DNA from: a virus
Strand: one strand, 5' to 3'
DNA: 22,328 nt
Virus record (IMG/VR): IMGVR_UViG_3300033149_001889
Span: 1-22,328 of that record
In this document: positions 1,980-20,563 of the stretch, piece by piece
How positions within the stretch are numbered: position 1 is the first letter of the stretch
How the letters are laid out: the number at the start of each line of letters is the position of its first letter
Notes under the pieces: generated by a model
Database searches by the model: none
Seen by the model: only the letters and a program-made list of their open reading frames with translations
What the model was told of the DNA's origin: nothing
Translations under genes and position numbers: made by a program

Positions 1980-2015
1980 ACAATAATCGTATTAGAAGAC
2001 AAAAGAGGTTTGCAA
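1980..2015 (-). promoter_or_regulatory. Late promoter-like box before the large tail-end gene
   Basis: TTGCAA (2015-2010) continues as ACCTCTT; 18 bases; TACGAT (1991-1986); six bases; ATG at 1979. No Shine-Dalgarno. The 13 bases TTGCAAACCTCTT are identical to the box at 3250-3238. Confidence 0.45.
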
Positions 2016-2017
2016 AA

Positions 2018-3214
2018 CTAAGCGAATGCGAAAGATTCTTCTTCCCGCCTTCGTGGAGTGATTATCCCTTCAGGTTCTTCTTCTTTCTTGATTCGACCTA
2101 CAGGCAATTGCTGTTGAGTTTGACCACTTGTTATTGCTAAAGCAGTTTTAGGAGAAGTTGTTGTGCTTCCTAGCAATCCTTGTAATGCTTCTGTTCCTCC
2201 TGTTGCAGATTGCGTAAATGCTTGGAAGGCCGATTCTAGTTCTTGTTCCGCTTGTTGCTTTTGAGCCTCGACTGACCCTCTAAGTTGTGTTTCAGCAAGG
2301 TTAATTTGGAATACTTGATTTCTGAGGTCTTGTAGAGCCGCCAGCCTCATGTTTGCTTTGTCGGCTTCTGTTTCTGCCCGCAATCTGTCAATTTCCGATA
2401 GTCTGTCTTGGAATTCCCTCTTGACATTGTTCAGCGCTCTATTTTTCTGAGCTTCAAGGTTGGCAACAGCAGAAACAAATCTGTCTTGAAGATTGGCTCG
2501 CTGAACTTGAACATTCTGCATAAAGTTAGTGAAATCTTGAGCTATTTGAGCTCTATTTCGCTGGAACTCTCTTGCACTTAATTCTCCAAACGCTTCACCA
2601 GCTGTTGATGCCCCTCCAAATCTTTGCATTCCTCCAATACGAAGTTCATTAAACAACCTTCTTGCGGCGGCAACTGCATCTTCTCTTCTTTGTTCCCCGC
2701 CAGTAGTTGCTAATTCAAGTTGCCTTTCAGCTGCACCTTTTTCCCTCTCAACCTCTCCCCTGCTTGCCGCAAATTGCTCTGCAACTTCCTGTTGCGCTGT
2801 TGGGAAATCTCCTCGAATTCTTTGTTCTGCTCGACCAAGGAAGCCCAACCTTGAAGCGGCTGCGTCTTCAATTGCCTGAAGAAAGGGATCAATTGATGGA
2901 GCTCCGTTGCCAGTGTCACCACCACCGCCACCAGTAGTAGCAACAGTGCCAGTAGCACCGCCAGCAGAATCAGTCGTGCCGAGTACTTCTGGAGAAGTAA
3001 CTCCTCGCTGAATAGCTTCTGCGGTAGGAAAATCTATCACTGGCTGTGAAAAATCAGCACGAACGGGTGGTGCAAGATTAAATGTTCGTTGACCACTAGC
3101 AAGTTGACCTCCAATATCTCTTAGCGGATCAGCAAAAGCGCTTTCTCCTGGAAGACCTTCCAAAAATCCACCAAAAGCGCCCAGTCCTCTGCCGACAATA
3201 TCTAGAACTCCCAT
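2018..3214 (-). CDS. Probable internal virion (ejection-type) protein, Gly-rich and coiled-coil
   Basis: 398 residues from the ATG at 3214 (MGVLDIVGRGLG). A GTG at 3271 would add 19 residues but overlaps the nozzle gene. The N-terminus is small-residue rich (GRGLGAFGGFLEGLPG), followed by a Gly/Thr linker (about 80-105, TGTVATTGGGGGDTGNG). Long Ala/Gln/Arg-rich helices then run from about 115 to 330 (LFNELRIGGMQRFGGAS, RAEQRIRGDFPTAQQEVAEQF), and the tail is basic (PVGRIKKEEEPEGIITPRRREE). The combination of disordered Gly-rich start and long coiled-coil after the nozzle gene suits a protein packed in the capsid and ejected with DNA. No family is recognised with certainty. Confidence 0.55.
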   Translation of the reverse strand: MGVLDIVGRGLGAFGGFLEGLPGESAFADPLRDIGGQLASGQRTFNLAPPVRADFSQPVIDFPTAEAIQRGVTSPEVLGTTDSAGGATGTVATTGGGGGDTGNGAPSIDPFLQAIEDAAASRLGFLGRAEQRIRGDFPTAQQEVAEQFAASRGEVEREKGAAERQLELATTGGEQRREDAVAAARRLFNELRIGGMQRFGGASTAGEAFGELSAREFQRNRAQIAQDFTNFMQNVQVQRANLQDRFVSAVANLEAQKNRALNNVKREFQDRLSEIDRLRAETEADKANMRLAALQDLRNQVFQINLAETQLRGSVEAQKQQAEQELESAFQAFTQSATGGTEALQGLLGSTTTSPKTALAITSGQTQQQLPVGRIKKEEEPEGIITPRRREEESFAFA

Positions 3215-3250
3215 ATTTTTATTTTCTACAACTTGAGAAGAGGTTTGCAA
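3215..3250 (-). promoter_or_regulatory. Late promoter-like box before Gly-rich coiled-coil gene
   Basis: TTGCAA (3250-3245) continues as ACCTCTT; 18 bases; GAAAAT (3226-3221); six bases; ATG at 3214. No Shine-Dalgarno. The box begins one base after the nozzle stop codon. Confidence 0.45.
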
Positions 3251-3251
3251 G

Positions 3252-5195
3252 CTATACTCTCTGACCTGCACTCAAACTTCCCGCACTTTGTAGTGCTGCA
3301 TCAATTTTTATTTCTAATAATTCAAAGTTAGAATTTTCTGCTGTAGAAGTTACTTCTACCTGTACAAGCCTGCTTTGTTTGAATAATGCCCCCCATTTGG
3401 TAAGTTCATCTCCCACTGTCGTTGCCGAAGTTCCGCTTGGAATACCCCATGTAGAAAGTCCCCATTTGTCCATTCCCCACCCCGTTCTTCCTGCTACCTC
3501 AGCACCTGTAATTGTAAATGATTTGACAGTAGAAGTTGCTCCACTTCTATCTTCTATGATTATATTTACTGTCGTTGAACCCTTAATTGCTCTGAAAAGG
3601 ATGTAAAAAAACTTAAGAATATTTAATCTGCTGAAATCTCCAAAATCTTCTTTCTTTGTTCTTAGAGTTTTGACAACGGCTGTTCCATCGTCTGTGTCTG
3701 TTGATACGTCGAATCTATAAACCTGATTGCTTGACGTACAACCCAAAACCCACCTTTCGTTGCCAGTATCATCTATATATTTCAACATATGGGAAATCCC
3801 ATAGGGGAGCTTCCATGGCCCAAGGAATGCCCCCCTTTCTCTGTCGTAAACTATCATTTCTTTCTTTTGCGGGAATGAAAGAATATATTTGTTATTAACA
3901 TAGAAAGCGGTAGCGTTTTTGAAGTCATCTTCGTTCAAGAGGTCTAAATATGGCCTTATTCTGGCGCTGATTTCATTTGTTCTAATAATATTGAGGAAGT
4001 TTGGCTCATACCCCGTTACATAAAGACCGTCTCTTCCGAAATAAAAGGTATCGTTTTCTACAGTTGCGATAGTGTTTTGACTAGAACACCCAACCGCTGT
4101 AGAAACTGGTGCATAGTGGGGGTCTAAGTATGAGAAATTTCCTATTTGTACAAGAGAAAGTTCTACCAGATAAGAACTCCTTTGCTTATAAACAATAATC
4201 CTGTCAGCAATCGGCTGAACCGCCAGTCCTGTTATGTTGTCGCCCGAATCTGGGTCAATATAAATTCCTCCTCCTCCATCTTCCCAGTTAAACTTGGCGT
4301 GATTAGGAAATCTTCCTGAAATCAAAAGCCTGCTTGGGTCATCCTCTGGGACAACAAGCAGTCTATCTTTGTCTTTAATAATAAATTCTGATTTAACACC
4401 TCCTGTGGTGTTCGTTAGCGGAGGCTCTACTATTTCGCTTGCAGGCAGTCCTCGGTCAACATAGGTTGTTACATTTGGATCTGTAGCTGCAAGAAACGTC
4501 TCATCTCCTTCTCTTCCCCGATAAATTTCAAATCCGCCCAGGGTAGCCGCTGACGGAGCTGTCCAAAAAAGATGAACCTCTGTGTCTGATAATTCGCTAG
4601 GAAGCTCTTCTAAAACAAAATTATCACCTGGAGTTGTTTGGCCTCCGTTTTCCCCTATTGCCACTACCTTCCAAGAAACTCGATTACTCCCCGTTGCTCC
4701 TGAGAAATTAGTAGCTGAAAGACCTGTCGGCGGAGAAATGGTCGCAAAGACAGAAAGGTCTGTCCCGTCATACTCTGTGAAGTTTTGATTTTTGCTGACA
4801 ATATAGGTTTTTCCTCCTAGTTGTTCTGTCCTGATAATAGAACCGCTTGGCCAAGATTGACCTGTTATTTTCGTTGAGCTTGCTCCATCTCTTTTGGCAA
4901 GAAACCCCTCGTCTGTTAATGCAAAAATCTCATTAACTGTTTCATCTGTGGACTTGTAAGTTCCAAATCCTCTGATTGAGCCCGTAGCGTTGGCAGTAAA
5001 ATATTTAATCGTTCCCCACCTTCCTGTGGGAACACCTTTTCCTGTAAGTAAAATATTATCTGCTTGAGATAGCTCCTCGTTGTCTAATTCCGTTGGTCGA
5101 AGAAGTTGGTTTAATCCTTTGCGAAAAGATTTCCACTCAGAACTTACCCCTCTAGAGGCTTTGAATTTTGGTTGCTTGAGATCAAATGTTGCCAT
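3252..5195 (-). CDS. Tail nozzle / stabilization-type protein with an Ig/FN3-like insert
   Basis: 647 residues, beta-rich. The start (KGLNQLLRPTELDNEELSQADNILL, 27-51) and the following WG and ADRIIVYKQRSSYL motifs are like the beta-propeller nozzle or stabilization proteins of podoviruses (P22 gp10 type). Residues about 152-250 look like an FN3/Ig-type insert (PPTGLSATN, VSWKVVAIGENGG, HLFWTAPSAATLGGFEIYRG). The C-terminal part has Trp-Gly repeats (GWGMDKWGLSTWG, near 575), common in these proteins. It would close the tail tip and may carry the fibre or receptor contact. The start lies one base after the adaptor stop. Confidence 0.75.
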   Translation of the reverse strand: MATFDLKQPKFKASRGVSSEWKSFRKGLNQLLRPTELDNEELSQADNILLTGKGVPTGRWGTIKYFTANATGSIRGFGTYKSTDETVNEIFALTDEGFLAKRDGASSTKITGQSWPSGSIIRTEQLGGKTYIVSKNQNFTEYDGTDLSVFATISPPTGLSATNFSGATGSNRVSWKVVAIGENGGQTTPGDNFVLEELPSELSDTEVHLFWTAPSAATLGGFEIYRGREGDETFLAATDPNVTTYVDRGLPASEIVEPPLTNTTGGVKSEFIIKDKDRLLVVPEDDPSRLLISGRFPNHAKFNWEDGGGGIYIDPDSGDNITGLAVQPIADRIIVYKQRSSYLVELSLVQIGNFSYLDPHYAPVSTAVGCSSQNTIATVENDTFYFGRDGLYVTGYEPNFLNIIRTNEISARIRPYLDLLNEDDFKNATAFYVNNKYILSFPQKKEMIVYDRERGAFLGPWKLPYGISHMLKYIDDTGNERWVLGCTSSNQVYRFDVSTDTDDGTAVVKTLRTKKEDFGDFSRLNILKFFYILFRAIKGSTTVNIIIEDRSGATSTVKSFTITGAEVAGRTGWGMDKWGLSTWGIPSGTSATTVGDELTKWGALFKQSRLVQVEVTSTAENSNFELLEIKIDAALQSAGSLSAGQRV

Positions 5196-5196
5196 A

Positions 5197-5844
5197 TCAT
5201 GCTCTGTTTTGTAATGGATTTCTGAATTTCATTTTAGTATCCCTCGATTGGCCCGATGAGCCTTTCATTTCCCGCCCCATTAGATTTGATAATTGTCTTT
5301 GAGCTTTCTGTTCTGCTATAGGAAACCTATCATCACTTCTTGAATAAAGAACATATTGCTCTGTCTGTCTTGCTACTACCTGCGGGTCTGAAAGCTCGCA
5401 AACATCAGTTAAAGTTGCTAATCCCGAAGGGAATCTCTGATAAACCGCAGACAAAGTTGCTCCTGAAATCAATTGATTAAAAATAAGATTATATCCTGCC
5501 GCTGGGTCACCCATAACATAGGCGTATTTTTCATTAGTACTTTTTTCGTATCTTTCCTCTGCTTCAATAACTTCGTATTCTTGCCAGTTTCCAGTAGAAT
5601 CTAAAACTTGCGGATTCACCATTAATTCTCTGAAATCTGAGGGAAGAGATACCGTCGCCGATGTTCCAACCGCTGTTATATATTCTCGTTTGAACTCACT
5701 GAGCTGTCCGGTTGCCGAAGCATCCCAGACTGCCTGATTGGCATAATTAGTTCTCGTAACAAGCTCGTCTCCTGTTGGAAGAGTGGCCTCTAAATCAAGA
5801 ACAGCATTAACATCCGTTAAGATTTGAGATAAAGTGCGTGCCAT
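5197..5844 (-). CDS. Head-tail adaptor protein
   Basis: 215 residues starting MARTLSQILTDVNAVLDLEATLPTGDELVTRTNYANQAVWDAS. This opening (short helix, then P-T-G-x-x-L-x-x-R-x-x-Y-x-N-x-A) is one I know from podovirus/SU10-type adaptor proteins (P22 gp4-like) that bind under the portal and receive the tail nozzle. A beta-rich middle (TVSLPSDFRELMVNPQVL, YNLIFNQLISGATLSAVYQRFP) and a C-terminal helix follow. It lies one base before the nozzle-type gene, which strengthens the call. Confidence 0.72.
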   Translation of the reverse strand: MARTLSQILTDVNAVLDLEATLPTGDELVTRTNYANQAVWDASATGQLSEFKREYITAVGTSATVSLPSDFRELMVNPQVLDSTGNWQEYEVIEAEERYEKSTNEKYAYVMGDPAAGYNLIFNQLISGATLSAVYQRFPSGLATLTDVCELSDPQVVARQTEQYVLYSRSDDRFPIAEQKAQRQLSNLMGREMKGSSGQSRDTKMKFRNPLQNRA

Positions 5845-5880
5845 GCTTTAATTCTGATAGAAGCGCTAAGAGGTTTTCAA
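5845..5880 (-). promoter_or_regulatory. Late promoter-like box before adaptor gene
   Basis: TTGAAA (5880-5875) continues as ACCTCTT; after 18 bases CAGAAT (5856-5851), six bases, ATG at 5844. No Shine-Dalgarno. Overlaps the last codons of the gene upstream. Confidence 0.45.
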
Positions 5881-6534
5881 TTGCCAGTCAACATTTGGCG
5901 ACAAATACTTCTCAACCATGTGCGTAGCAATTGCTGGTAAAGCAGACCACAAAAGACCGCCTTTTTCATTAATCTCAACCCACCTTGCATGGTCAATATA
6001 TCCGTGTTTGTAAAAAATATCCCGATAAGCATTAAAATGCTCTCTTTTAGTTGCAAAAGTTGAAGTTGTTGAAATTGTCTGCTTCCAGTGTCGATTGCCG
6101 ACAACTTGAACAGTAGGGGTCGTTTCTGTTTCGTATTTGTCTGGATGGTCATAGGGAGTTACAAAATCCAGCTTCTCTACTGCTTCCACAATTTCTTTTC
6201 CTGCATCTGGTAAGTAAAGATAATCGGCTTCTTGAAACAAAACCGCATCCTCGTCTGTCGCTTCATACATCTCATATTGAAGTCTGCACGTTCCATCTAT
6301 GCCTAAGCTTGTATGTTTAATGTCGTGGGGAAAGGGAACAATCTTTTTTATCATTTTATCGTAATCCTCCCCGCAATGGTCACAAATAAAGATTACTTTC
6401 GGATTAACTTCCTTAAAAGCATCAACAAAACTCTTAAGACAGAATTCATTCAATTTGAATTGGTCATCTTTGAAAATTGGCGATGGTTCGGATATCGACG
6501 ACTTAATGTCGCACATTCTCATGTAAACTATCAT
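5866..6534 (-). CDS. Probable glycosyltransferase-like (GT-A) protein (222 aa)
   Basis: The start overlaps the previous stop (ATGA). The protein begins MIVYMRMCDIKSS, followed by FKLNEFCLKSFVDAF, a strand KVIFICDHCGEDYD, then SLGIDGTCRLQYEMYEATDEDAVLFQEADYLYLPDAG, and a C-terminal half with VTPYDHPDKY. The order of strand, helix and the acidic EADYLY stretch resembles GT-A enzymes, with E-x-D in place of Asp-x-Asp. It is the last gene of the sugar cassette. The final codons (QLKTS and stop) are written in the same bases as the adaptor promoter-like box, so that signal is partly coding. Confidence 0.6.
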   Translation of the reverse strand: MIVYMRMCDIKSSISEPSPIFKDDQFKLNEFCLKSFVDAFKEVNPKVIFICDHCGEDYDKMIKKIVPFPHDIKHTSLGIDGTCRLQYEMYEATDEDAVLFQEADYLYLPDAGKEIVEAVEKLDFVTPYDHPDKYETETTPTVQVVGNRHWKQTISTTSTFATKREHFNAYRDIFYKHGYIDHARWVEINEKGGLLWSALPAIATHMVEKYLSPNVDWQLKTS

Positions 6535-7196
6535 CGGTAATACCTCGTTTGCGGGTCAAACCCGTGTTTTGCTTTGAATTTCTCTATTGAATCTTCTGTG
6601 ACCCTTGAATAGTCTAATTTATGAAGAACATCCCCTTCTTTGTGCCAGATGCCCATTCTAACCCTAACAAGCTGAAATCCAGCCATGAGGACTCTGTGCC
6701 AGTAGTCCGTATCTCCGCAATTAGTTGTAAATTGTGGGTCAAAGTCTTCAAAGAATCTGTCTTTTCGAAGCATAAAACAGTAACCAGGGTAAAATCTTTC
6801 CTTTTTAATAAGGTCTTCTTCTATGTTGATAAAGGGAGTTACTGAGGGATTTCCCAGAAACGGAGCCGAAACCCCCGTGTTTTCTTCTCTAAACCCTGTC
6901 GCCAGCTTGTCAAGCCAACCTAAGGGAACTTTTACATCATCATTTACGATAACAACGTATTCTCCTTTTGCCGCATTCTTGCCTGTGTTCCAAGCAACAG
7001 AGATTCCTTGATTTTTCTGTCTGATGTACTTATCTGCGGCTTTTTTGAGAAATTTCGTATCAAGAGTAGAGCCGTCATCAACAATAATGAATTCGTAATC
7101 ACCACTTGCTTGCTTGATGCTTTTAATCGTATCTTCTACGACTTTGCGGTGAGACTCCTCTCGCAGATAGACTGGCATGATGACTGAGTGTTTCAT
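6531..7196 (-). CDS. GT2 family glycosyltransferase
   Basis: 221 residues from the ATG at 7196 (MKHSVIMPVYL), which overlaps the epimerase stop. A longer frame to 7286 would lie inside the epimerase gene. GT2 landmarks are in order: SVIMPVY (4-10), FIIVDDGST, a helix with GISVAWNTGKNAAKGEYVVIVNDDV containing the NDD metal site, and CGDTDYWHRV near the C-terminus as acceptor/catalytic region. All key residues are present, so it should be active in transferring a sugar from a nucleotide donor. It overlaps the next gene by four bases. Confidence 0.9.
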   Translation of the reverse strand: MKHSVIMPVYLREESHRKVVEDTIKSIKQASGDYEFIIVDDGSTLDTKFLKKAADKYIRQKNQGISVAWNTGKNAAKGEYVVIVNDDVKVPLGWLDKLATGFREENTGVSAPFLGNPSVTPFINIEEDLIKKERFYPGYCFMLRKDRFFEDFDPQFTTNCGDTDYWHRVLMAGFQLVRVRMGIWHKEGDVLHKLDYSRVTEDSIEKFKAKHGFDPQTRYYR

Positions 7197-8179
7197 TTTT
7201 TCCAATTCTTCGGCAGTTTCTTGCTTTCTAGTTCCAGTGGTGTCAAAACTATTTCCTGTGGGCCTTGCTTTTTTGCCCATTCCCAAGTTTTCTTTATTCC
7301 TTCTTCAAGAGTTGTTTTACACTCATGATTTAATTCTTTTTTGGCAAGAGAGTGATCAACAATTGTAACCTTAACTTCCTGCGGTCTATCGGGTAAATAT
7401 TCTGGCTTTATCTTTGTTCCTGAAGCTTTTATGATTGCATTTGATAATTCATTTATCGTGTAATAGTCATCACTTCCAATGTTGTAGATTTTCCCCTTCT
7501 TTCCCATACCCGCCTTATAAATTCCTCCAACAACATCTTCTACATAAGAAAAACATCTTTTTTGCTTTCCGTCTCCATAAATAACATGAGGCTCTTTGCG
7601 GAGAATCTTGTTCATGAAAATAGTAACAACATTCCTGTAAGGATCTTTCATGCTCTGTCTTGGACCATAAATGTTGTGAGGTCGAACAATCACATATTCT
7701 ATCCCATGTACCTTGCTCATTATTTTCAAAGACTCCTCAAAGGCATACTTTGAAATAGCGTATAAATCTTCTGGTTTCGGAATGCTTGTTTCTTTGTGAG
7801 GTAGTTTTATATCTCCATATACAGCCGCACTTGAAATAAAAACAAACCTTTTTGCTTTGTGCTTAATGGCTGAAGTTAAAACGGGAATTGATGCTCCAAA
7901 GTTTCTTGTTGTAATATCTATCGGACTGAACTGGGCTTTGTTCTCAGCGGCATTGGCGGCTAAGTGGAAAACCATCTCTGGCTTAAATTGCCGGAAAAGA
8001 GAATCTACTAAAATAGGATTTCTAACATCTGCTTGATAGATTTTTGCATGAGGGTTGACATTCTGCATTGTTCCTCCTGAAAAATCATCTGCAATTGCCA
8101 CTTCGTGCTTGTCTTCAATTAATCTATCAACAATATAGCTCCCGACAAACCCCGCCCCACCTGTTACAAGTACTTTCAT
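7193..8179 (-). CDS. NAD-dependent nucleotide-sugar epimerase/dehydratase
   Basis: 328 residues from the ATG at 8179, chosen because AAGGGG lies nine bases upstream and the protein then begins directly with the Rossmann strand. Extended short-chain dehydrogenase signs are complete: TGGAGFVG (6-13), acidic DD (31-32) for NAD, HLAANAAE (72-79), SSAAVYG (116-122), the catalytic Tyr140-x3-Lys144, and RPHNIYGPRQ. It probably converts a UDP- or GDP/dTDP-sugar (GalE/WbpP-like) to supply the neighbouring glycosyltransferases. The exact substrate cannot be read from sequence. Stop and start overlap with both neighbours (ATGA), so the cassette is translated as a unit. Confidence 0.92.
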   Translation of the reverse strand: MKVLVTGGAGFVGSYIVDRLIEDKHEVAIADDFSGGTMQNVNPHAKIYQADVRNPILVDSLFRQFKPEMVFHLAANAAENKAQFSPIDITTRNFGASIPVLTSAIKHKAKRFVFISSAAVYGDIKLPHKETSIPKPEDLYAISKYAFEESLKIMSKVHGIEYVIVRPHNIYGPRQSMKDPYRNVVTIFMNKILRKEPHVIYGDGKQKRCFSYVEDVVGGIYKAGMGKKGKIYNIGSDDYYTINELSNAIIKASGTKIKPEYLPDRPQEVKVTIVDHSLAKKELNHECKTTLEEGIKKTWEWAKKQGPQEIVLTPLELESKKLPKNWKK

Positions 8180-9678
8180 TTCATCCATCCCCTTGCTATT
8201 CTTTTGGCATTCTTGCTAATCCAATCTGCACAATCTTCGTCTTTGATTTCTTTTGGCACTCTGAACTCTAATCTGATAGAATTATCTTTTTCTTCGTCTC
8301 TGCGAAGAGGCAATTCTCCCTTCTTCATCTTTTCAGTAAACCAAATCCAATAAGGAGTGGCAAGGTGTCGTTCTCTGTCAACGATGTTTTCCTTTTTACC
8401 AGCAATATGCGGCCACAAATCAATACAAGTAGCGATATTAGTATCATCAATGATTATTTTATGACCAGATTCTATTGCTCTTAAGGCAATTTCCGTATTG
8501 TCGTACCCCAGCCCATCATCAAAGAATTCCCACCAGCCATTTAGTTGTTCGATTATCCTTTTGGGAGTAGCAGAATAATTCATTTCAAAGTCAAAGGCGT
8601 TGTCAGTATAGCGAATGCCTTGATTTTTCACTCTCACATTTGTCCAGCTCTTTTTAGTAATAATATCTGTTTCTCCATCCCACCAGTCCTCTTTGTTCTT
8701 TTGGTTTGGCTTTTTACAATGATAATAAACATCTACAGGAGCAATTAAAGAGGTTGGATTATGTCGGTATATGTCTACAAGGCTCTCAATTCCGTTCTCT
8801 GGAATTAGAATAAAATCCTGTAACCAGACAATCAGTTCATTTGCTTGCTTCCAAGCTTTATTATTCGCCCTGACTAGTCCATATCTTCTTTTATACTTTC
8901 CCAAAACCTTGTCCCCTCGGATATATTTGATATCTAAGTCATATTTCTCTGCATACTTCTTGGCAAGCTCGCTTCTGTCTTCTTCATGGTCATCTAAAAT
9001 AATCCACTCAAAATTTTTATATGTTTGTTTTGAAAGATTGTCGGCCATTATGTTCCACCACCCTGTTCTGATGGTAATAGTGATAACAGAAACTTTTGGC
9101 TGTTTAAGTGGTTTTTTGAATTCTTCAATCCATTGAGGAGCTATTTTCTCCCAAGACATATCTTTAGCGAACTTTTTTGCTTTCTGAGATTCCTCTTTCC
9201 ATCTTTTTGGGTCATTCATGATGTCCAAAAGCTCTTTTAGGTATTTATCTTTCACTTTTGGGTCTTTAATATTGCCATCAAGTTTGATACCACTGCCTAC
9301 TGTTTCATCTAAGGCCGCTAGACGCATTGTAACGGGCACTAGGCCGTCATGCTGGGCATCTAGTGCAGTAATGCAGTTTATCTCGCTAAATGCGGTAGGA
9401 TACGCCCAAATACCACACTTTTTTCTTATTTTTTTTAACTTTTCCTTGCCAACTCTGCCATAATGAAAAATTCCCTTTTGATTCATCATCCTTTGAACAC
9501 TTTTCTTCCAAGCTTTCCTTTCCGGATTATTGCTAACGAGTTTGTCGAAGGTTTCCCACCCGTAACAGATATGAAGTTCTGCGTTTGGAAACTTTTTAAG
9601 AATATCAGGCCACAAGAACAAAAGAATGTCTAGTTCTCGGTCGTACGAACTTCCCCAAAATAGTTTATGTCTTCTCAT
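8176..9678 (-). CDS. Glycosyltransferase: C-terminal half of GT4 plus GT2-like domain
   Basis: 500 residues. The protein starts inside a GT-B fold: LFWGSSYDRELDILLFLWPDI (6-26), AELHICYGW (33-41) and the donor-site loop FSEINCITALDAQ (98-109). There the usual E-x7-E motif reads E99-x7-D107. This is the missing half of the GT4 domain begun in the upstream gene. From 196 a GT2-type GT-A domain follows (VSVITIT, NLSKQTYKNFEWIILDDHEED, RRYGLVRANNKAW). The usual Asp-x-Asp is replaced by LQDF, so metal use or activity may be altered. The start ATG lies 14 bases inside the tiny membrane gene. It overlaps the epimerase by four bases (ATGA). Confidence 0.82.
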   Translation of the reverse strand: MRRHKLFWGSSYDRELDILLFLWPDILKKFPNAELHICYGWETFDKLVSNNPERKAWKKSVQRMMNQKGIFHYGRVGKEKLKKIRKKCGIWAYPTAFSEINCITALDAQHDGLVPVTMRLAALDETVGSGIKLDGNIKDPKVKDKYLKELLDIMNDPKRWKEESQKAKKFAKDMSWEKIAPQWIEEFKKPLKQPKVSVITITIRTGWWNIMADNLSKQTYKNFEWIILDDHEEDRSELAKKYAEKYDLDIKYIRGDKVLGKYKRRYGLVRANNKAWKQANELIVWLQDFILIPENGIESLVDIYRHNPTSLIAPVDVYYHCKKPNQKNKEDWWDGETDIITKKSWTNVRVKNQGIRYTDNAFDFEMNYSATPKRIIEQLNGWWEFFDDGLGYDNTEIALRAIESGHKIIIDDTNIATCIDLWPHIAGKKENIVDRERHLATPYWIWFTEKMKKGELPLRRDEEKDNSIRLEFRVPKEIKDEDCADWISKNAKRIARGWMK

Positions 9679-9808
9679 TTTTAAGATTTTCGATAATAGT
9701 GAAAATTATCACTAATGGTATCCCGCAAACAATGATTCCTAGAATAGCCCAAATAAGAGCGAAGATTATTAGTCCTAGTTGTGAAAAAAATATTTGATTA
9801 AATTCCAT
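9665..9808 (-). CDS. Tiny membrane protein between two halves of a GT4 enzyme (47 aa)
   Basis: Reads MEFNQIFFSQ, then a continuous hydrophobic run from about residue 11 to 39 (GLIIFALIWAILGIIVCGIP and on to IIFTII), then a charged end ENLKNEKT. One long or two short membrane helices are likely, with the Gly-Ile-Pro turn near 29-31. It overlaps the upstream glycosyltransferase stop by 11 bases and the downstream start by 14 bases, in a third reading frame. Together these fill the gap between the two GT4 halves. It may anchor or pair the split enzyme at the membrane, or be an inserted unrelated gene; only the membrane character is clear. Confidence 0.65.
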   Translation of the reverse strand: MEFNQIFFSQLGLIIFALIWAILGIIVCGIPLVIIFTIIENLKNEKT

Positions 9809-11594
9809 TGCTTATAATTGAAAACTTGCTGTCGGGGGTATTTTCCCCTAATGTTCTGTGATACTTGCTTTTAACAAAAATCTTGTCTATTCCGCTTATT
9901 TTATCATGATAACCAGCGTCGTGCCAAACATCGTGCAGGTCGATATAAAACTTCTTTGCAGAAACTTTATTTACAAGGTGATTGTGCCTCCACTGTATGA
10001 AAATATTAAATTTGTCTCTTTGATTAAATTCGTGATACGGCAAATAGATAACCCCATTTACCTCTGTCGGCTCTTTGGGGTCTCCATAAACTGTTACTTT
10101 GTACCCTTGTTTTGTCCATTCTTCTGAAAGCCTGATAACGGCAGTTTCTGAACCTCCAATCCCTGTTTTGAGGCTGTTTCCATCCCACTTGCCGACATAC
10201 TCTGTTCCAAAATTAGCAAAGTAACAGATTTCATTGTCTTTCCAAATCTTTGGCTCTTTGTATCTTTGATAATAGCGGTTGGCGAAGGGAAGTCTTTTGA
10301 TTGCTTTTGGCAATACCTCAACTAATGAGGCAATCTTTTCTGTTTCTTTAGTATCTTCGAGATATTTAATGATTTGATGAGTGTTTTTTGAGGCATCATT
10401 TAATCTTTTTATGTCATACAGTTGGTCTTCTGCTTGCTGATGTATTTTGTTTGGTAAAATTCTATTAAGCAACCTTGCGGATTTCCATGCTTTGTTAATA
10501 TCTCTTTTGTCTCCTAAATAATAATATTTCATATTAAGCTCTGCGGCTAGAATCTTCATTTCTAAAATGTTATTAAATCCTGAACTGTTCTTGTTTACTT
10601 CCATAGAAACTCCTATGTCTAGCCAATGTCTCATTGCCGAGTAATTCTTTAGGTTGAAATACGCCCTTGACAGATGTAAATACAAGAGTGGGTCATGAGG
10701 ATATTCGTTAATCGCTTTATGGAGAAAGTCCTTTGCTTCTTCACTGTTTCCCAATTTGCCCATGCAATTAGCCATTATTCGACAGCAGGTTGCTCTCTCC
10801 TCATCCCACCCTGATTTTACTAAGTATTCTTTGCCCATTTCTATACATTTCTCTAAAAGCTCCTGATCTGTTTCTTCTGCATAAATTTTCATTAAGTAGA
10901 GAAGTGTCCTGGGGTCAGCATCCCCCTTCTTTCTTTCATCTGCAAGCTCCATCTCAAGCAGCCTTCTGTTTCTAACCATTCGTGCTTTCATTTTCTCCTC
11001 CGGCATATTTCTTTCCGCCCCCAAGTGAAGCCATGCAATCGGATTTCCTTTAGAGTATCTTATTTGAGTATACTTGTAATTTTCATCTACTGGGACAGGT
11101 GTTTCATGTATTCTTTTCTTCCAAATTAGTTTTCTGGGTCGGATGAGCCTCTCTCTCATCTGAATAACTTCAGGTTCTATGAAGGTTTCCAGAGATGGTT
11201 TTCCGCTAAATTCAGCAGCATACCAGTAAGTGAAAAATACAGCGTCATAATTCTGTTGGAGAGCCAATCTAGCGATTTTCCGTATACGGTTAGCGCCAAT
11301 GATTACATCATCACTATCGCTCCAAATAATGTAATCTGTGTTTTCAGGAGCTCTTTCGAAGTTGAAATTCCTTTGAGCAGAAAAGTCTTCAGACCAAGGA
11401 AGGTGAGAGTAGTCATATCCCATCTTTTTACACCACTTCTCTACTTTTTTAACAGGAGTTTGTTTCCCGTCTGGTTCTCCTCCGTTGGTTGTGATATGAA
11501 CCGTATCCGCAAGTCCTTCAGTAGATTTTAGCAATCTTTTCAGGCTTTCAAGTTTATTATCTCCTTCAACAATAATACAGTGAGCTATCTTCAT
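9798..11594 (-). CDS. Glycosyltransferase: GT2 domain, TPR helices, and N-terminal half of a GT4 domain
   Basis: 598 residues. Residues 1-230 are a GT2-type GT-A domain: MKIAHCIIVEGDN start, HITTNGG (33-39), and the metal/nucleotide site WSDSDDV (91-97). About 235-440 is a TPR-like helical region (CRIMANCMGKLGNSEEAKDFLHKAI, LYLHLSRAYFNLKNYS). From about 455 a GT-B N-terminal Rossmann half begins, with GIGGSETAV (478-486), VTVYGDP and DLHDVWHDAGYH, and the gene stops at ISNGI, exactly where the GT4 N-half ends. The C-half of this GT4 domain is found at the start of the 9678-8176 gene. It probably transfers sugars from nucleotide donors in the cytoplasm, perhaps to virion proteins. The start overlaps the previous stop and no Shine-Dalgarno is seen. 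Confidence 0.85.
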   Translation of the reverse strand: MKIAHCIIVEGDNKLESLKRLLKSTEGLADTVHITTNGGEPDGKQTPVKKVEKWCKKMGYDYSHLPWSEDFSAQRNFNFERAPENTDYIIWSDSDDVIIGANRIRKIARLALQQNYDAVFFTYWYAAEFSGKPSLETFIEPEVIQMRERLIRPRKLIWKKRIHETPVPVDENYKYTQIRYSKGNPIAWLHLGAERNMPEEKMKARMVRNRRLLEMELADERKKGDADPRTLLYLMKIYAEETDQELLEKCIEMGKEYLVKSGWDEERATCCRIMANCMGKLGNSEEAKDFLHKAINEYPHDPLLYLHLSRAYFNLKNYSAMRHWLDIGVSMEVNKNSSGFNNILEMKILAAELNMKYYYLGDKRDINKAWKSARLLNRILPNKIHQQAEDQLYDIKRLNDASKNTHQIIKYLEDTKETEKIASLVEVLPKAIKRLPFANRYYQRYKEPKIWKDNEICYFANFGTEYVGKWDGNSLKTGIGGSETAVIRLSEEWTKQGYKVTVYGDPKEPTEVNGVIYLPYHEFNQRDKFNIFIQWRHNHLVNKVSAKKFYIDLHDVWHDAGYHDKISGIDKIFVKSKYHRTLGENTPDSKFSIISNGI

Positions 11595-12025
11595 ATTTTA
11601 TTCGTAAATTGGAACATTGGCCATTTCCTGCACATCTTTATTGCATTTTTTCTTTCGGCGGCATTGAAGGTGGGAAATACTCTTTTAATCATTAAATAAA
11701 TCGGGTAAGGGTATGAAGCTAGTGAACGACCAGTTCTTCTTGATACTTGAGTGGAGGTTGGAAGCTCCGCATTCTTGTATTCTTTTCTGTCTGCCCGCCA
11801 TTGACTGGCTTCTTTCGGGTATGAATTTTGCCAAACGTTGATAATTGCATCCATAACGGCCGCACCTGCTTCTGTAAGTGGTGTTTGAGGCTTGCCAACC
11901 CTTTCCCACAATTCTGAAATGAATTTTGCACCTGCGGTTGCTCTTGGGGGAATTATTTCAAATTCTTCATCTTTTAACTTTATTACTCCACCTGATTGTT
12001 TAATCTCGTCTTTTGGAGAAATCAT
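11591..12025 (-). CDS. Unknown protein after capsid gene (144 aa)
   Basis: The protein starts MISPKDEIKQSGGVIKLKDEEFEIIPPRATAG, followed by a helical core (AKFISELWERVGKPQTPLTEAGAAVMDAIINVWQNSYPKEASQW), a basic linker with STQVSRRTGRSLASYPYPIYLMIKRVFP, and an FNAAERKNAIKMCRKWP helix. I do not recognise the family. Its place after the capsid terminator with its own TATAAT suggests either a minor virion protein or the first gene of the sugar operon. Its stop overlaps the start of the first glycosyltransferase by four bases (ATGA), tying its expression to that cassette. Confidence 0.7.
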   Translation of the reverse strand: MISPKDEIKQSGGVIKLKDEEFEIIPPRATAGAKFISELWERVGKPQTPLTEAGAAVMDAIINVWQNSYPKEASQWRADRKEYKNAELPTSTQVSRRTGRSLASYPYPIYLMIKRVFPTFNAAERKNAIKMCRKWPMFQFTNKI

Positions 12026-12058
12026 AGTTTATTATAACATATTATAACAATAACACAA
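12026..12058 (-). promoter_or_regulatory. Promoter at leaderless distance after the capsid terminator
   Basis: TTGTGT (12058-12053), 16 bases, perfect TATAAT (12036-12031), five bases, ATG at 12025. A second TATAAT lies upstream inside the spacer. No Shine-Dalgarno. It would restart transcription for the unknown gene and the sugar cassette. Confidence 0.5.
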
Positions 12059-12061
12059 CTT

Positions 12062-12090
12062 AAAAGCGGGGTATTAACCATCAACCCCGC
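12062..12090 (-). terminator. Rho-independent terminator after capsid gene
   Basis: On the minus strand GCGGGGT (12090-12084) pairs with ACCCCGC (12072-12066) through an 11-base loop, followed by TTTT (12065-12062). A 7-bp, mostly GC stem plus T-run about 60 bases after the capsid stop is a standard intrinsic terminator. The T-run is short, so some readthrough is possible. Confidence 0.8.
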
Positions 12091-12148
12091 GTTAGGACTT
12101 GCTGAGTCATTGCCTTTCGGCTAGAGAGTTGCAAGTTACTCCCCACGA

Positions 12149-13078
12149 TTAAAGACCTGTGTTGTAGCCAGTTCTCTTTACAGAAGCTTTCTCGTTGTAA
12201 GAAACAAGTGTAAATTCTGTAATGTAGACTCCGTTCTCTCGGTCACCATCCTTAGCTCTGTCCTCCCAGTGAGGCTCACCAGAGTTAATAAGGAAGGAAT
12301 GCTCAAACATATCTTCACGTACACCCAAAACAGTAAGAGTGCCTGCGGCCTTTCTTACGTCTTTGTGAGCGATGATTTTAATGGTTTGACCAACCTCTGA
12401 GTCGTACACCCTGACCTCTTGAGTCAACCTCTTGTCAGAAGCCTCAACGTTCCTTGTCAAGTTTGTACCAAAGCTGGCAACACGCCTTTTGATAACAACT
12501 GGAGCAGCCAATAAGTCCATCACATAAGCTGAACCTACCGCATCCCATGAATCCTGAACAATGTCGTTTAGCTCTACCTCTGAGAATGAAGTCCCAGTAC
12601 CACGAGCTGTTACGTTAGAAGTAATGACAGCATCAATTCCTGCCATACCCCTTGCTACGCCAGAAGCTCCGGCAGCAGATGAGCCGTTAATAGTTGCGTA
12701 CTCCATTTCGGACTTAAGTCGCCTTAATGCCCTTTCCTTCTCCTTACCCATTGCGTCTTCACCAGTTACCATAGCGATAGATGCCTTGGTTCGGGAAAGT
12801 CTAACAGGAGCATCCAAAATAACTGTGTAGTTATTTGAACGCGATTCAGCTTCTAGATCAGGATAAGATGTCGCTGCGCCCTCAATCTCTGCGTCAACAG
12901 AGCTTGCCCTATCTTCGTGGAATATGTTCCACTCATGTAGAGGTTGCATTGCTGGCGGTGCTACTCCCAGGTTGGAAATGAAGTAAACATCTTCATTAGG
13001 AGATATATCTTTCAATATATCCAATAAAGACTCTCTCATTTCGCTTGATCCTGAATATGTATCTTTTCCAAATGCCAT
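12149..13078 (-). CDS. Major capsid protein (SU10/DUF5309-like)
   Basis: 309 residues from the ATG at 13078, chosen for the GGAG ten bases upstream. The longer frame from 13108 would add ten residues with no signal. The start MAFGKDTYSG, the EWNIFHEDRASS and AEIEGAATSYPDLEAE region, NYTVILDAPVRLSRTKASI, a long helix (GKEKERALRRLKSEMEYATINGSSA), and the SVGQTIKII-like and HSFLINSGEPHWEDRAKDGDR ends match my memory of the HK97-fold SU10-type capsid family (DUF5309). Position after the scaffold and the strong leader plus terminator fit a highly made shell protein. The terminator that follows separates it from the sugar cassette. Confidence 0.85.
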   Translation of the reverse strand: MAFGKDTYSGSSEMRESLLDILKDISPNEDVYFISNLGVAPPAMQPLHEWNIFHEDRASSVDAEIEGAATSYPDLEAESRSNNYTVILDAPVRLSRTKASIAMVTGEDAMGKEKERALRRLKSEMEYATINGSSAAGASGVARGMAGIDAVITSNVTARGTGTSFSEVELNDIVQDSWDAVGSAYVMDLLAAPVVIKRRVASFGTNLTRNVEASDKRLTQEVRVYDSEVGQTIKIIAHKDVRKAAGTLTVLGVREDMFEHSFLINSGEPHWEDRAKDGDRENGVYITEFTLVSYNEKASVKRTGYNTGL

Positions 13079-13185
13079 AATATTTAATCTCCTCTCTAAG
13101 CACGTCAATCACGGGACATACTACCGTTCAGGAATTTATCAGAAGTGCTCAGTTTAGAGTCGGAGCATCAGACTACCTTTGAAGT

Positions 13186-13215
13186 ATTTTCTAATAAGAA
13201 GGGGGGGGTTTTCAA
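13186..13215 (-). promoter_or_regulatory. Promoter-like box with C8 tract before capsid gene
   Basis: TTGAAA (13215-13210) then ACC, an 18-base spacer that contains eight consecutive C (13208-13201), then GAAAAT (13191-13186). A transcript would start near 13179 and carry a leader of about 100 bases to the capsid start. This is the only member of the motif set with a long leader and a real Shine-Dalgarno. Confidence 0.45.
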
Positions 13216-13218
13216 GCC

Positions 13219-14061
13219 TTAATTGCCAGAACGCCTTAGTCTTTCTGCTAAAGCACCTTTCTTGCCAGTCTTAACATCTTGAATTAGCTGGTCACGCTCA
13301 TAATCTTTATAATACCCCTTTACCGTACGAAAACTCGGCGTAGAAGCATTAATCTGCCTCTTTTTTTCGTCAATCACTTTTAGTTTTTCTCTGTCAGCTT
13401 TTTTCACTTCTTTTTCTCCGTACATTCTATTATACCATTTATCGGAAGCGACCATCACATCCTCTTTTCCTTCGATCATTTGACCTATTAATTCATTCCT
13501 TACAGCGTCAAAGAAATCTTTGTCAAACTCTTTGCTTTTGGGATTTAGCTGAGGATATTTCTTGTGAACCTCTCGCATCTTTTGTTTTTCCTCAAAGTCT
13601 CTTTGGCTTCTTGTTGCCTGAGTAGCTGCTTGCTCTGCAAGAAGTGCTCGCTTCCTTATCTCTTCATTTTCTCTGTTCATTGTCGATAGCTTTTGAAGAA
13701 GTTTATTGCCATCTATCATTCCATCGGGAGTTGCTAATTCCTGATAAATCTTGTCAACTTCTGGTTGAGAAAGGTGAGGATATTGAGTTGCACTTGGAGG
13801 TTTTGATGACGGTGCTGGTGTTGGAGTGGGCGAAGGAGTCGGCTGAGGGACTGCCTTTTCCTCTGGCCTCAAGCTTTCCAGTAAATCTTGTGTTTGCTTT
13901 TCAAGCTCTTCCCTTTTCTTTTTCTCTTTTTCTTTTTCTTCTTTTAACTCTTGATTAGACTTCTTGAGTTTATCAAACTGTTCCTGAGTCCTCTTTTTGG
14001 GACTTTCTGGAGATTCTGGAGCTTTTACTTCTTCCGCTTCTTTCTTCTTTTCCTCTGGCAT
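13219..14061 (-). CDS. Scaffold-like head assembly protein
   Basis: 280 residues, placed between portal and major capsid genes where scaffolds usually sit. Residues 1-70 are extremely charged (Glu/Lys coiled coil). A Pro/Thr/Ser linker follows (about 74-92, PQPTPSPTPTPAPSS). Then comes a helical region with YPHLSQPEVDKIYQELATPDG and long charged helices (ENEEIRKRALLAEQAATQATRSQRDFEEK), and the C-terminus is basic (KGALAERLRRSGN), as in scaffolds that contact the capsid shell. No sequence signature is diagnostic; the call rests on position and composition. It has its own promoter-like box and no Shine-Dalgarno. Confidence 0.7.
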   Translation of the reverse strand: MPEEKKKEAEEVKAPESPESPKKRTQEQFDKLKKSNQELKEEKEKEKKKREELEKQTQDLLESLRPEEKAVPQPTPSPTPTPAPSSKPPSATQYPHLSQPEVDKIYQELATPDGMIDGNKLLQKLSTMNRENEEIRKRALLAEQAATQATRSQRDFEEKQKMREVHKKYPQLNPKSKEFDKDFFDAVRNELIGQMIEGKEDVMVASDKWYNRMYGEKEVKKADREKLKVIDEKKRQINASTPSFRTVKGYYKDYERDQLIQDVKTGKKGALAERLRRSGN

Positions 14062-14095
14062 ATTATTATTATAACAATTAAGACAAAAAAATCAA
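14062..14095 (-). promoter_or_regulatory. Sigma70-like promoter at leaderless distance before scaffold gene
   Basis: TTGATT (14095-14090), 16 bases, perfect TATAAT (14073-14068), six bases, ATG at 14061. There is no Shine-Dalgarno between the -10 box and the start, so a transcript from this box would begin at or within a base or two of the ATG. Confidence 0.5.
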
Positions 14096-14289
14096 GTTTT
14101 CAAGAGTTTTAATAGCTTTCCAATCCTCGGCCCTGTCCAAACTGCTCCGCAAACACATCTTAGTTCAGAGCCTTTTATCTTAGCCTTTTTGTGATTGCAA
14201 TTGCCAAAACTGATAGTCTTCTTTTCAGAAAAAGCTTCATACTTTTCAACTTCTTCCTCAGTCTTTATTGGTTTTAGTTTTTTTGACAT
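14092..14289 (-). CDS. Small Cys/His protein before scaffold (65 aa)
   Basis: The start lies within the previous gene (32-base overlap). The protein has a Lys/Glu-rich N-terminal helix (1-24), a possible metal site CNH (31-33) with CVCG (45-48), then VWTGPRIGKLLKLLKT. One Cys-x-His and one Cys-x-Cys pair is an unusual spacing compared with normal ribbons. The last codons (LLKT plus stop) are written in the sequence TTGAAAACTTGA, which also starts a promoter-like region for the scaffold gene. No family is recognised. Confidence 0.55.
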   Translation of the reverse strand: MSKKLKPIKTEEEVEKYEAFSEKKTISFGNCNHKKAKIKGSELRCVCGAVWTGPRIGKLLKLLKT

Positions 14290-14584
14290 TTGTCCCTAAT
14301 GAATAATCCTTCTTGGGCTGCTTTATTTTCTCTGCAGTAATTTTAGCAAGCTTCTCGGAGTTCTCAATAACATTGTATAGTTCCTTAAATGCCATTGCTT
14401 TCCCGTAAAGTTCTGTATATCTTTTGTGAAATTCTTTAACTGTTTTCGCCTTTGAGGGGTCAGGCCACAGGTTGCGGAAGGTTTCCTCCAAGTGGGGCTT
14501 GAGGTGTTGCTGGTACTCCTTGGTCTTGGCCAACGAGGCCATTGCCTTGTAAAATTCTAGGTTCTTCTGTAGTTGTTTGTTCAT
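14258..14584 (-). CDS. Hypothetical helical protein overlapping the portal gene (108 aa)
   Basis: The frame runs from inside the portal gene (125-base overlap) to 14258. Beyond the portal stop it is the only good frame: FRNLWPDPSKAKTVKEFHKRYTELYGKAMAFKELYNVIENSEKLAKITAEKI, mostly helical and charged. The full start at 14584 gives MNKQLQKNLEFYKAMASLAKTKEYQ, which reads like a proper helix. I therefore accept the long overlap, but a start at 14542 cannot be excluded. Small helical proteins with a W-x-x-P centre often follow phage portal genes; their role is not known to me. The 3' end overlaps the next gene by 32 bases. Confidence 0.6.
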   Translation of the reverse strand: MNKQLQKNLEFYKAMASLAKTKEYQQHLKPHLEETFRNLWPDPSKAKTVKEFHKRYTELYGKAMAFKELYNVIENSEKLAKITAEKIKQPKKDYSLGTNVKKTKTNKD

Positions 14585-16472
14585 TTATCGGTACAAAGAA
14601 TCTTTCACTGTCTCTTGCTCCTGCGTCTTCAAGGATACTTGTCAAAATTTCTTTAGCATTCGGCTCGAATCCTTGTTTCGCTAATAATTGTAACATAATT
14701 TGGTTATTACTGAAAAGAGCCAATGCTTCTTGACGTGCACGGGAAGCTTCTTCTCCTGCGCCAACAGACATTGATTTTATGTCTGGAATGTAATCATATA
14801 ATCCTTCAAGGTCTTCCGGAATAATAACAACAGTTGCTGAATTGCCGAGATCGTCAATTTCCATCTTCGGACTAACCTTAATCTTTTCTGGGTCTTTTTC
14901 TTCTGGGTTTTCAATAATCGGGAACTTCGGCATTTCGGCTGTTTCAATCAGTTCTTGTATGTCACCATCTGTGAGACTTGGGTCTTGAGAAACAATATCT
15001 CCAATAAGCCTTGCGTTTTCTGGAGTCAATTCCTTGTCTGCCAGTCCCGCCCTCTGGAAGAAATCAAACTTCTCTTTTCCGATAATTCTAACGATTTGCT
15101 CTTTCCTTTCAGGAGTGAAGAGAAATTGTTTGTTGTTGCTGTGCCACATCATCATAATGTCCTTGATAAACTCCGCTAAGTCGTTCTGGTTCTTTTGGTC
15201 TCTTACGTTTTGCTGTTTAACTGTTGCTTTGATTTCTGTTGCCGTTCTCTTTTCTTGAGCAAATGGGTCGAATTGACTGACTCCCTGGCTCAAATCTCCC
15301 ATGGCGACATTGAATTCAGACGTTAAAATAGCGTGAGTTGTTTGAAAGAACTGAATTGAGTTGCCTGAGCTTGTCATTTCCATAACCGCATCCTGTCTGT
15401 CTACTAACCATTGGGCCTCTGGGGCATATTCGATTGTTTCTATTCTGGCTTGGTTTTCTATTATCTTAAGAGGTGGCCTCATCTTAAGAATAACCTCATC
15501 CATGTAAGAACAGAGGTTGGCCTGAATTGCCAGCCAAAGAGGAAGAACTGGCTCTACCTCGCTCTCGCCAAGCGGGTCATCCTGCAAAGGATAATATCTT
15601 AGTTGAGCAACAGGTATCTTTCCGTGATCATACGGATTGGGAATGTCCCTTAAGACCAAATCGTACTCCGGAGCGAAAGTAATCCACCTATCCCGACGGT
15701 ACTCTGTAACAATCATAATTACAGGAAAAGCCATGTCCTCTCCCATTCGGTCTTCTAGTCCCTTAAGTTGTTTGATCCTGCTGACCCATTCATTTCTTCG
15801 TGCGCTTTGTTTTGCCTTTCCTCGATTACCTGTTTTAATTCTTTTTCTAAGTTCAGTTTCTATTGTTCCGAGTCCTTTGAAAATTGGCTTCCCGCCTGTG
15901 TCTGTTTGATTTTTCAGGTCTTCTAGGTGTTCCCATGTTCTTAATTGAAACCATTTTGCGTTTTCAATGTGGGTAGAATTTGGGTCAATACCGCAATCTC
16001 TAATATCAAGAGGCATCAATTCATTTCCGTCAAAGATAACTTTTCCATCCTTGTCAATCTCTGTTTTCCAGTAAACATAAGCAAACTTTGAAGCATACAA
16101 ACGGGCATCTAAATCAGAAATTCCAATTTTAACCAGCATACTTCCTCCATCGTTGGCATTATCCCATTGATACTCTAAGATTGAATTGCTGAGACTTGCT
16201 CCCAGAATATCTCCTTCTTCACGAGGAATAAGCCTTCCTCTTAACTTTGAATTTATCAGCCTTCCATTCTTTTCAATTAATGAAGTTCTTATCCGAGGGT
16301 CAACGATTCTGGTGATATATGGCCAGTCATCTGGAAGCTTTCCCCAATACGCATCTGTTATATCATTCCAGCCATTTGTACGAGTTCTCCTTTTGTCATT
16401 GTCCTCAGTCCACATTTCGTAGTGCTGATTGATTTCCAAAAGAAGTTCATCCTTTTTCTTTTTTTGCCCCAT
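14460..16472 (-). CDS. Portal protein
   Basis: 670 residues. It follows the terminase genes and has the usual features of a long portal: a Lys-rich N-terminus, the NGWNDITDAYWGKLPDDWPY region near 33-52, KNGRLINSKLRG (68-79), a wing/stem region with PYDHGKIPVAQLRYYPL and GESEVEPVLPLWLAIQANL, and a Gln/Pro-rich flexible tail (QGVPATPQAPLGGNLPQPVA at the end). Portals form the dodecameric ring at one capsid vertex through which DNA enters and leaves. The length suits podovirus-type portals (about 600-750). Translation seems not to use a Shine-Dalgarno. The last 125 bases also encode the start of the next ORF in another frame. Confidence 0.85.
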   Translation of the reverse strand: MGQKKKKDELLLEINQHYEMWTEDNDKRRTRTNGWNDITDAYWGKLPDDWPYITRIVDPRIRTSLIEKNGRLINSKLRGRLIPREEGDILGASLSNSILEYQWDNANDGGSMLVKIGISDLDARLYASKFAYVYWKTEIDKDGKVIFDGNELMPLDIRDCGIDPNSTHIENAKWFQLRTWEHLEDLKNQTDTGGKPIFKGLGTIETELRKRIKTGNRGKAKQSARRNEWVSRIKQLKGLEDRMGEDMAFPVIMIVTEYRRDRWITFAPEYDLVLRDIPNPYDHGKIPVAQLRYYPLQDDPLGESEVEPVLPLWLAIQANLCSYMDEVILKMRPPLKIIENQARIETIEYAPEAQWLVDRQDAVMEMTSSGNSIQFFQTTHAILTSEFNVAMGDLSQGVSQFDPFAQEKRTATEIKATVKQQNVRDQKNQNDLAEFIKDIMMMWHSNNKQFLFTPERKEQIVRIIGKEKFDFFQRAGLADKELTPENARLIGDIVSQDPSLTDGDIQELIETAEMPKFPIIENPEEKDPEKIKVSPKMEIDDLGNSATVVIIPEDLEGLYDYIPDIKSMSVGAGEEASRARQEALALFSNNQIMLQLLAKQGFEPNAKEILTSILEDAGARDSERFFVPINEQTTTEEPRILQGNGLVGQDQGVPATPQAPLGGNLPQPVA

Positions 16473-16506
16473 GCTTTATTTTCCCAAACTACATAATGGT
16501 TTGCAA
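16473..16506 (-). promoter_or_regulatory. Late promoter-like box before portal gene
   Basis: TTGCAA at 16506-16501 continues as ACC. After 17 bases comes GAAAAT at 16483-16478, then five bases and the portal ATG at 16472. No Shine-Dalgarno is visible. Same design as the boxes before the adaptor and both tail-end genes, with a spacer one base shorter. Confidence 0.45.
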
Positions 16507-20342: not shown

Positions 20343-20563
20343 AATCTAGGGTGGAAGTCAGGCATCAATACCAAGTTCTTTAACTGCATCATCATGCTAT
20401 AGATATGAAGGTGGGTTGTTTTCGCCCACTCACAGATGCTCTAAGTTCCCGTATCTTGGCGGTCAGCGTTCACTCTGACACCCTAGATTAAAACCCTTGT
20501 TAAGTTGTCGGGAGAGTCAGTTGCTTTTTGGCCTCATTGGGCACTTAACAAGTGGACTCTCCC
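20343..20563 (-). ncRNA. Candidate structured RNA with pseudoknot and long-range stem
   Basis: The stretch covers the last codons of the IS110-C-like gene and the 222-base gap after it. Four exact inverted repeats are visible. Stem A pairs 20555-20563 with 20510-20518 (9 bp). Stem B pairs 20543-20552 with 20496-20505 (10 bp). A and B interleave, which is pseudoknot order. Stem C pairs 20479-20489 with 20343-20353 (11 bp) and encloses small hairpins at 20462-20479 (5 bp) and 20411-20429 (GTGGG/CCCAC). No plausible gene fills 20323-20544. The strand is assigned from the direction of all neighbours. It could be a regulatory RNA, a guide or partner RNA of the HNH protein, a degenerate self-splicing intron, or folded transposon ends. 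I recognise no known RNA family. Confidence 0.5.

Follow-up and report, generated by a model that had tools for sequence, protein, structure and literature searches.

Do repeated motifs in front of virion genes mark a dedicated class of late promoter, and do the transcripts begin at the start codon itself? The question arises from virus record IMGVR_UViG_3300033149_001889 in IMG/VR, of which positions 1 to 22,328 were analysed; this stretch of 22,328 nucleotides is called the window throughout. A sequence-only reading had pointed to five copies of TTG[C/A]AAACC, each followed by a -10-like hexamer, as a late regulon producing leaderless mRNAs with the help of a special factor. We find that these are very probably late promoters of uncultured phages with SU10-type capsids. 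In the reading we favour, late mRNAs would be leaderless, the capsid unit would be led by a pseudoknot, and a factor would read the extension of the -35 element.

Extended -35 elements before late genes

Pattern matching recovered all five sites where they had been placed, on the minus strand, which also carries the genes they serve. At the portal promoter, the extended -35 element TTGCAAACC (16498..16506) is separated by a 17-bp spacer from the -10 element GAAAAT (16478..16483). The latter ends 5 nt before the ATG of a portal-like gene (14460..16472; PHROG 332 head-tail adaptor, 1.5e-5). Three further sites have 18-bp spacers and a -10 element ending 6 nt before the ATG. These serve the adaptor gene (5197..5844; Pfam SU10_adaptor, 2.9e-6), with TTGAAAACC at 5872..5880 and CAGAAT at 5851..5856; gene g2018 (2018..3214), with TTGCAAACC at 3242..3250 and GAAAAT at 3221..3226; and a tape-measure-like gene that runs off the window (3..1979; PHROG 9854, 6e-22; PHROG 167 tape measure, 6.9e-5), with TTGCAAACC at 2007..2015 and TACGAT at 1986..1991. 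As had been noted, TTG starts 36 bases before the ATG of the adaptor, g2018 and tape-like genes (34 for the portal gene). No Shine-Dalgarno (SD) sequence is visible at any of the four starts, and all four genes are predicted to be leaderless. The fifth site, with TTGAAAACC at 13207..13215 and GAAAAT at 13186..13191, departs from the expected arrangement. A distance of 137 bp separates it from the downstream ATG of the major capsid protein (MCP) gene (12149..13078; Pfam SU10_MCP, 8.1e-45). Here, transcription is predicted to start at 13179, and the MCP gene is leadered, with AGAGGAG before its ATG. The description of the downstream genes as virion genes is borne out by Pfam and PHROG matches for the portal-like, MCP, adaptor and tape-like genes; it does not extend to g2018, which matches no family in either collection.

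A sixth TTGMAAACC match, at 14914-14906, falls within the portal open reading frame (ORF) with no gene start behind it. The six occurrences compare with 0.87 expected from dinucleotide shuffles (maximum 3 in 100 shuffles). A generic sigma-70 scan of the window was at chance level, with 38 sites against 38.1 expected. Hence, the evidence for promoters rests on the extended -35 element and its fixed geometry. Two TATAAT boxes had been counted with the same regulon. Both are real, at 14068..14073, 6 nt upstream of the gene in the scaffold position (13219-14061), and at 12031..12036, 5 nt upstream of gene g11591 (11591-12025). Neither has TTGMAAACC at the proper spacing, and we place them in an ordinary leaderless class outside the late regulon. 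Note that TTGNNAACC does occur at the g11591 start position in 4 of 40 relatives.

Searches with the MCP identified 18 viral relatives at first and about 45 later; their MCPs range from about 80% down to about 46% identity. The group consists of uncultured phages of roughly 40 kb with an SU10-type capsid; no portal relative was found among 50,697 annotated phages. A lack of the motif in front of these genes in relatives had been named as grounds for abandoning the idea. Instead, the motif is kept, and the relatives share one architecture: TTGNWAA plus an extension, 18 bp, TANNNT, 6 nt and ATG. Using a looser core (TTGNNAR plus a -10 element), 105 of 141 late gene starts were positive. The promoter occupies the leaderless position before 35/42 portal, 26/30 adaptor, 13/15 tape, 12/15 c14 and 13/22 g2018 genes. 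Controls shifted to -44..-51 or -54..-61 gave 0-4 per gene family. At the true position, the architecture was never seen before TerL (0/28), the gene that follows the adaptor (0/26) or MCP itself (0/45). Similarly, TTG[ACT][AT]AACC recurs 36-39 bp before ATG codons and is strongly oriented: the first 296 kb contain 51 matches on the forward strand and 8 on the reverse, and 767 kb contain 142 and 28. Of the matches in 767 kb that lie within 30-43 bp of an ATG, 83 are on the forward strand and 1 is on the reverse. By gene family, the sites in 21 contigs comprise adaptor 14, portal 13, g2018 9, c14 6, g11591 4 and c15 3, plus the tape families. A strict full-promoter pattern requiring TATAAT had zero matches, because the -10 element is usually only TANNNT.

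We aligned 83 distinct leaderless sites on their TTG. Offset 24 of the alignment is mostly T (0.77) and offset 25 mostly A (0.71), with a weaker T at offsets 29-30, which defines TANNNT after an 18-bp spacer (19 bp in a minority). A good TA...T score was obtained for 76 of the 83, and the distance to the ATG has a mode of 6 nt. The 36 capsid-operon promoters, with no ATG nearby, have an identical -10 offset (0.75 and 0.72). Hence, this is a promoter element rather than an artefact of anchoring near start codons. The capsid-operon promoters also have a T35-A36 step at the place taken by the A of the ATG in the leaderless set. Together with the shared -10 offset, this step predicts that transcription starts at the A of the ATG. 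Late starts use ATG in 96 cases and GTG in 2, and an SD-like sequence accompanies only 4 of 96. Other genes of these phages have either TTGACA...TATAAT ending 5-8 nt before the ATG or an SD sequence. Leaderless starts are thus not confined to the late class; the extended -35 element is. We conclude that, on comparative evidence, promoter class, geometry and gene set establish a predicted late-promoter regulon. The proposal of a late regulon with leaderless transcripts is supported by the architecture in relatives, its leaderless part by way of spacing. The result is a readable late regulon, with transcription starts predicted to the base, for a phage group that has no cultured member.

A pseudoknot in the capsid-operon leader

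In relatives, the capsid-unit promoter sits just before either the MCP gene or the scaffold gene. The predicted transcript then enters an H-type pseudoknot about 4-12 nt after its start (capsid leaders L004-L066). In the window, this structure occupies 13146..13174 on the minus strand, at the 5' end of the MCP transcript, with helix P1 formed by 13174-13171 and 13161-13158, and helix P2 by 13167-13163 and 13150-13146. The order is P1 (AGTC/GACT here), a 3-nt loop, P2 (TGCTC/GAGCA), one nucleotide and an A-rich loop with TAAA. Complementary changes in P1 give CGTG/CACG, CGAG/CTCG, AGCC/GGCT and ACTC/GAGT; those in P2 give TGCC/GGCA, TTCTC/GAGAA and TGAC/GTCA. Across 31 sequences, 94.3% of cells can pair, compared with 30-38% when the strands are slid by 1-3 columns. 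Changes on both sides affect 7 of 9 pairs and number 43, against 9.3 in shuffled alignments, and covariation is 0.462 against 0.137. In most relatives, an outer helix, P0, starts near +1 and encloses the pseudoknot. Matched P0 flanks had a mean of 5.58, mismatched flanks 3.73, and none of 20000 permutations did as well. We conclude that the leader of the capsid operon contains a strongly covarying predicted pseudoknot.

A geometric scan of 1.03 Mb found 49 pseudoknot cores, about half of them behind a late promoter in capsid leaders. The other cores, which have no late promoter ahead of them, are about as numerous as in shuffled sequence (12-21). When core patterns were sought in 2.9 million viral contigs, true copies occurred only in this group; other matches were in unrelated coding sequence. 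Rfam 15 has no family above its gathering cut-off in the window, and at E<=10 returned only the irrelevant sR9 (E 2.6). The leader pseudoknot is thus an RNA element with no Rfam match, in phages lacking cultured relatives.

Separately, in the window, an AUG inside the pseudoknot opens a 4-codon ORF (13168-13154, minus strand; MLRL).

The most likely role of the pseudoknot is either to protect the mRNA at its 5' end or to act as an operator. A narrower alternative, limited to this element, is that it does not protect the 5' end at all, and is either an autogenous translational operator, as for T4 gene 32, or a leader-peptide attenuator of four codons. We regard this as a credible alternative, if not the one we would choose. 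The operator has a precedent in gene 32 of T4, T2 and RB69, where a leader pseudoknot accompanies an unusually stable mRNA (PMC3014915); against this, many relatives have the element before the scaffold gene rather than before MCP. For the attenuator, 26 of 35 leaders have an ORF of <=5 codons that starts at an ATG or GTG within the pseudoknot, so a leader peptide may be made. However, this ORF is missing or open in the other 9, and its frame is largely set by pseudoknot geometry. The ORF is probably a by-product of that fixed geometry.

Proposed reading of the -35 extension

How might these promoters be recognised? In the mechanism we propose, RNA polymerase would be directed to TTGNWAA with a lineage-specific extension (ACC here), an 18-bp spacer and TANNNT. 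Transcription would start about 7 nt downstream of the -10 element, at the A of the start codon. The portal, adaptor, tail or tape, and some other late genes would be expressed as leaderless mRNAs, on which translation would begin at a 5'-terminal AUG. The capsid or scaffold-capsid unit would be driven by this promoter too, but its transcript would begin with the pseudoknot, closed in most relatives by the outer helix from about +1; the MCP start in the window is SD-led. The host primary sigma factor probably reads TTGNNA and TANNNT, and a putative, fast-evolving phage factor would read the extension.

The letters that follow TTGNNAA are ACC in most phages. They are AGT in G016 and L053, AGC or ACC in G017, and ACG or ACA in G003; G005 has both ACC and AGG. 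Extensions within one phage have a likeness of 0.79, compared with 0.63 for orthologous sites in different phages. None of 5000 label shuffles within gene family reached the observed coherence. Such concerted drift within each phage is as expected from a factor that co-evolves with the phage lineage, and it makes the co-drifting promoters a natural series for finding the recognition factor. The special factor suggested for ACC thus gains indirect backing from extension coherence, and we infer that a phage factor reads these bases; no candidate gene for it was found. A more specific version, which we advance only tentatively, is that a phage protein outside the recognised sigma and activator families replaces or remodels reading of the -35 element, using the 3-6 bases after TTGNNAA. 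Late mRNAs would then be split between leaderless portal, adaptor, tail and other transcripts and a pseudoknot-capped, leadered capsid transcript, with capsid output set apart by RNA stability or autoregulation.

An iterated hidden Markov model search for genes that track the motif returned nothing beyond structural genes, families resembling terminases and an SLT transglycosylase. Two proteins, both isolated weak matches, were considered as the factor and set aside. The first, a 66-aa Mor-like helix-turn-helix protein of G005 (41486-41686, in L030; PF08765 at cut-off), has no homologue in the other phages; its gene is preceded by a leaderless TTGACA...TATATT promoter. The second, a 79-aa helix-turn-helix-like protein of G011, likewise has no homologues in other phages.

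Several observations weigh against the interpretation that we prefer. No sigma-70 domain (PF04542, PF04545, PF08281) exceeded its cut-off in 27 phage contigs, many of them fragments, and profile searches of the same contigs found no Mor or other regulator gene common to the phages. The sole near-universal, non-structural early family is the SLT transglycosylase. Note that, because the contigs are fragments, a small divergent factor can be missed. Several contigs are closely related and so are not independent; all are classed as linear. We infer that the portal, adaptor, tape and other late mRNAs are leaderless from spacing, and the portal and adaptor starts of L007 (G003) and L010 (G004) look SD-led, so that these phages lend themselves to comparing the two types of start. 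Finally, the P0 helix of the window itself is weak.

The simplest alternative is that these are ordinary housekeeping promoters, used by the primary sigma factor of the host alone. Leaderless mRNAs would then be a habit of the host, and ACC a preference of its sigma factor. Consistent with this, the TTGNNA and TANNNT core is sigma-70-like, and other genes of these phages have the canonical leaderless promoters described above. Host clues point the same way. Two relatives, L038 and L039, are in metagenome-assembled genomes (MAGs) labelled Micrarchaeota and 'bacterium nzgw467', the latter from groundwater and without 16S. The first placement looks like mis-binning. In MAG nzgw467, TANNNT peaks 6 nt before the ATG (23 of 184 genes) and SD sequences are few. 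These signals are compatible with, and no proof of, a host fond of leaderless mRNAs, the link being co-binning alone. Conversely, the extension is missing from most TTGACA leaderless promoters and changes in concert inside each phage. Moreover, TTGNNAACC is at the right place in none of the 184 sampled MAG genes, although the phage relative in that bin itself carries no more than a variant. Recognition by host sigma factor alone is unlikely, if far from negligible.

A very improbable alternative is that the motif acts in RNA or translation, as a processing site or ribosome signal, rather than as a promoter. In most cases it directly follows the stop codon of the preceding gene, and its distance from the ATG is fixed, as such a signal might require. 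However, capsid leaders keep the same spacing from TTG to TANNNT although no ATG is nearby, and the 18-bp geometry is typical of -35 and -10 elements. Chance recurrence in AT-rich intergenic DNA, which the mere five sites in the window and the chance-level promoter scan might have suggested, is refuted by the controlled comparison of about 45 relatives, in which both position and sequence are conserved, and has almost no probability left.

Neighbouring genes and known systems

Downstream of the MCP gene, a GC-rich hairpin followed by TTTT (12066..12090, minus strand), read from the sequence, is a likely terminator; it was not listed by our hairpin scan, for which the loop limit was 8. Between the capsid and adaptor genes (5866-11594), the window has glycosyltransferase-like and NAD-epimerase-like genes, and many relatives carry homologues at the equivalent location. 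Among the accessory genes, a short ORF on the minus strand (20545-20925) matches the IS110-type transposase family (PF02371, 5.1e-6).

SU10, whose capsid and adaptor families are matched by genes of the window, belongs to the same phage group as phiEco32 and 7-11. In the latter two, as here, several dispersed late promoters share one consensus that differs between related phages (PMC8948821). There, a phage sigma factor (gp47 or gp36) reads GTAAtg-16-aCTA or tAATGTAtA (PMC8948821), and the promoter profile of the window group matches neither. Unlike those systems, the promoters described here have a sigma-70-like core with a varying 3' extension, the search for a sigma factor gene was negative, and leaderless mRNAs are predicted.

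Neither this promoter class nor the capsid pseudoknot was reported in the literature that we searched, from which subscription journals were mostly absent. Leaderless late phage mRNAs are already known, since Thermus phage phiYS40 expresses its middle and late genes in this way (PMC3594737). The predicted late mRNAs here are alike in that respect; no kinship with phiYS40 is shown, and the extended -35 element is particular to the present group. This drifting element and the capsid pseudoknot appear to be new. In Deinococcus-Thermus, TANNNT a few bp before the ATG yields leaderless transcripts genome-wide and can work without a -35 element (PMC12340547). The likeness to Deinococcus-type starts, drawn earlier, holds as an analogy and no further: TANNNT adjoins the ATG in both, but here a strong, extended -35 element marks a late gene set.

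For the pseudoknot, the closest parallel is gene 32 of T4, T2 and RB69, where the structure lies 67 nt before the start (PMC3014915). A 2010 review considered this T4-type pseudoknot perhaps the sole viral one in translational autoregulation (PMC3014915). Like that element, the one described here is an H-type pseudoknot in the leader for a highly made phage protein, tens of nucleotides before the start. Unlike it, the capsid element precedes a capsid or scaffold gene, differs in sequence, and often has an extra outer helix from about +1.

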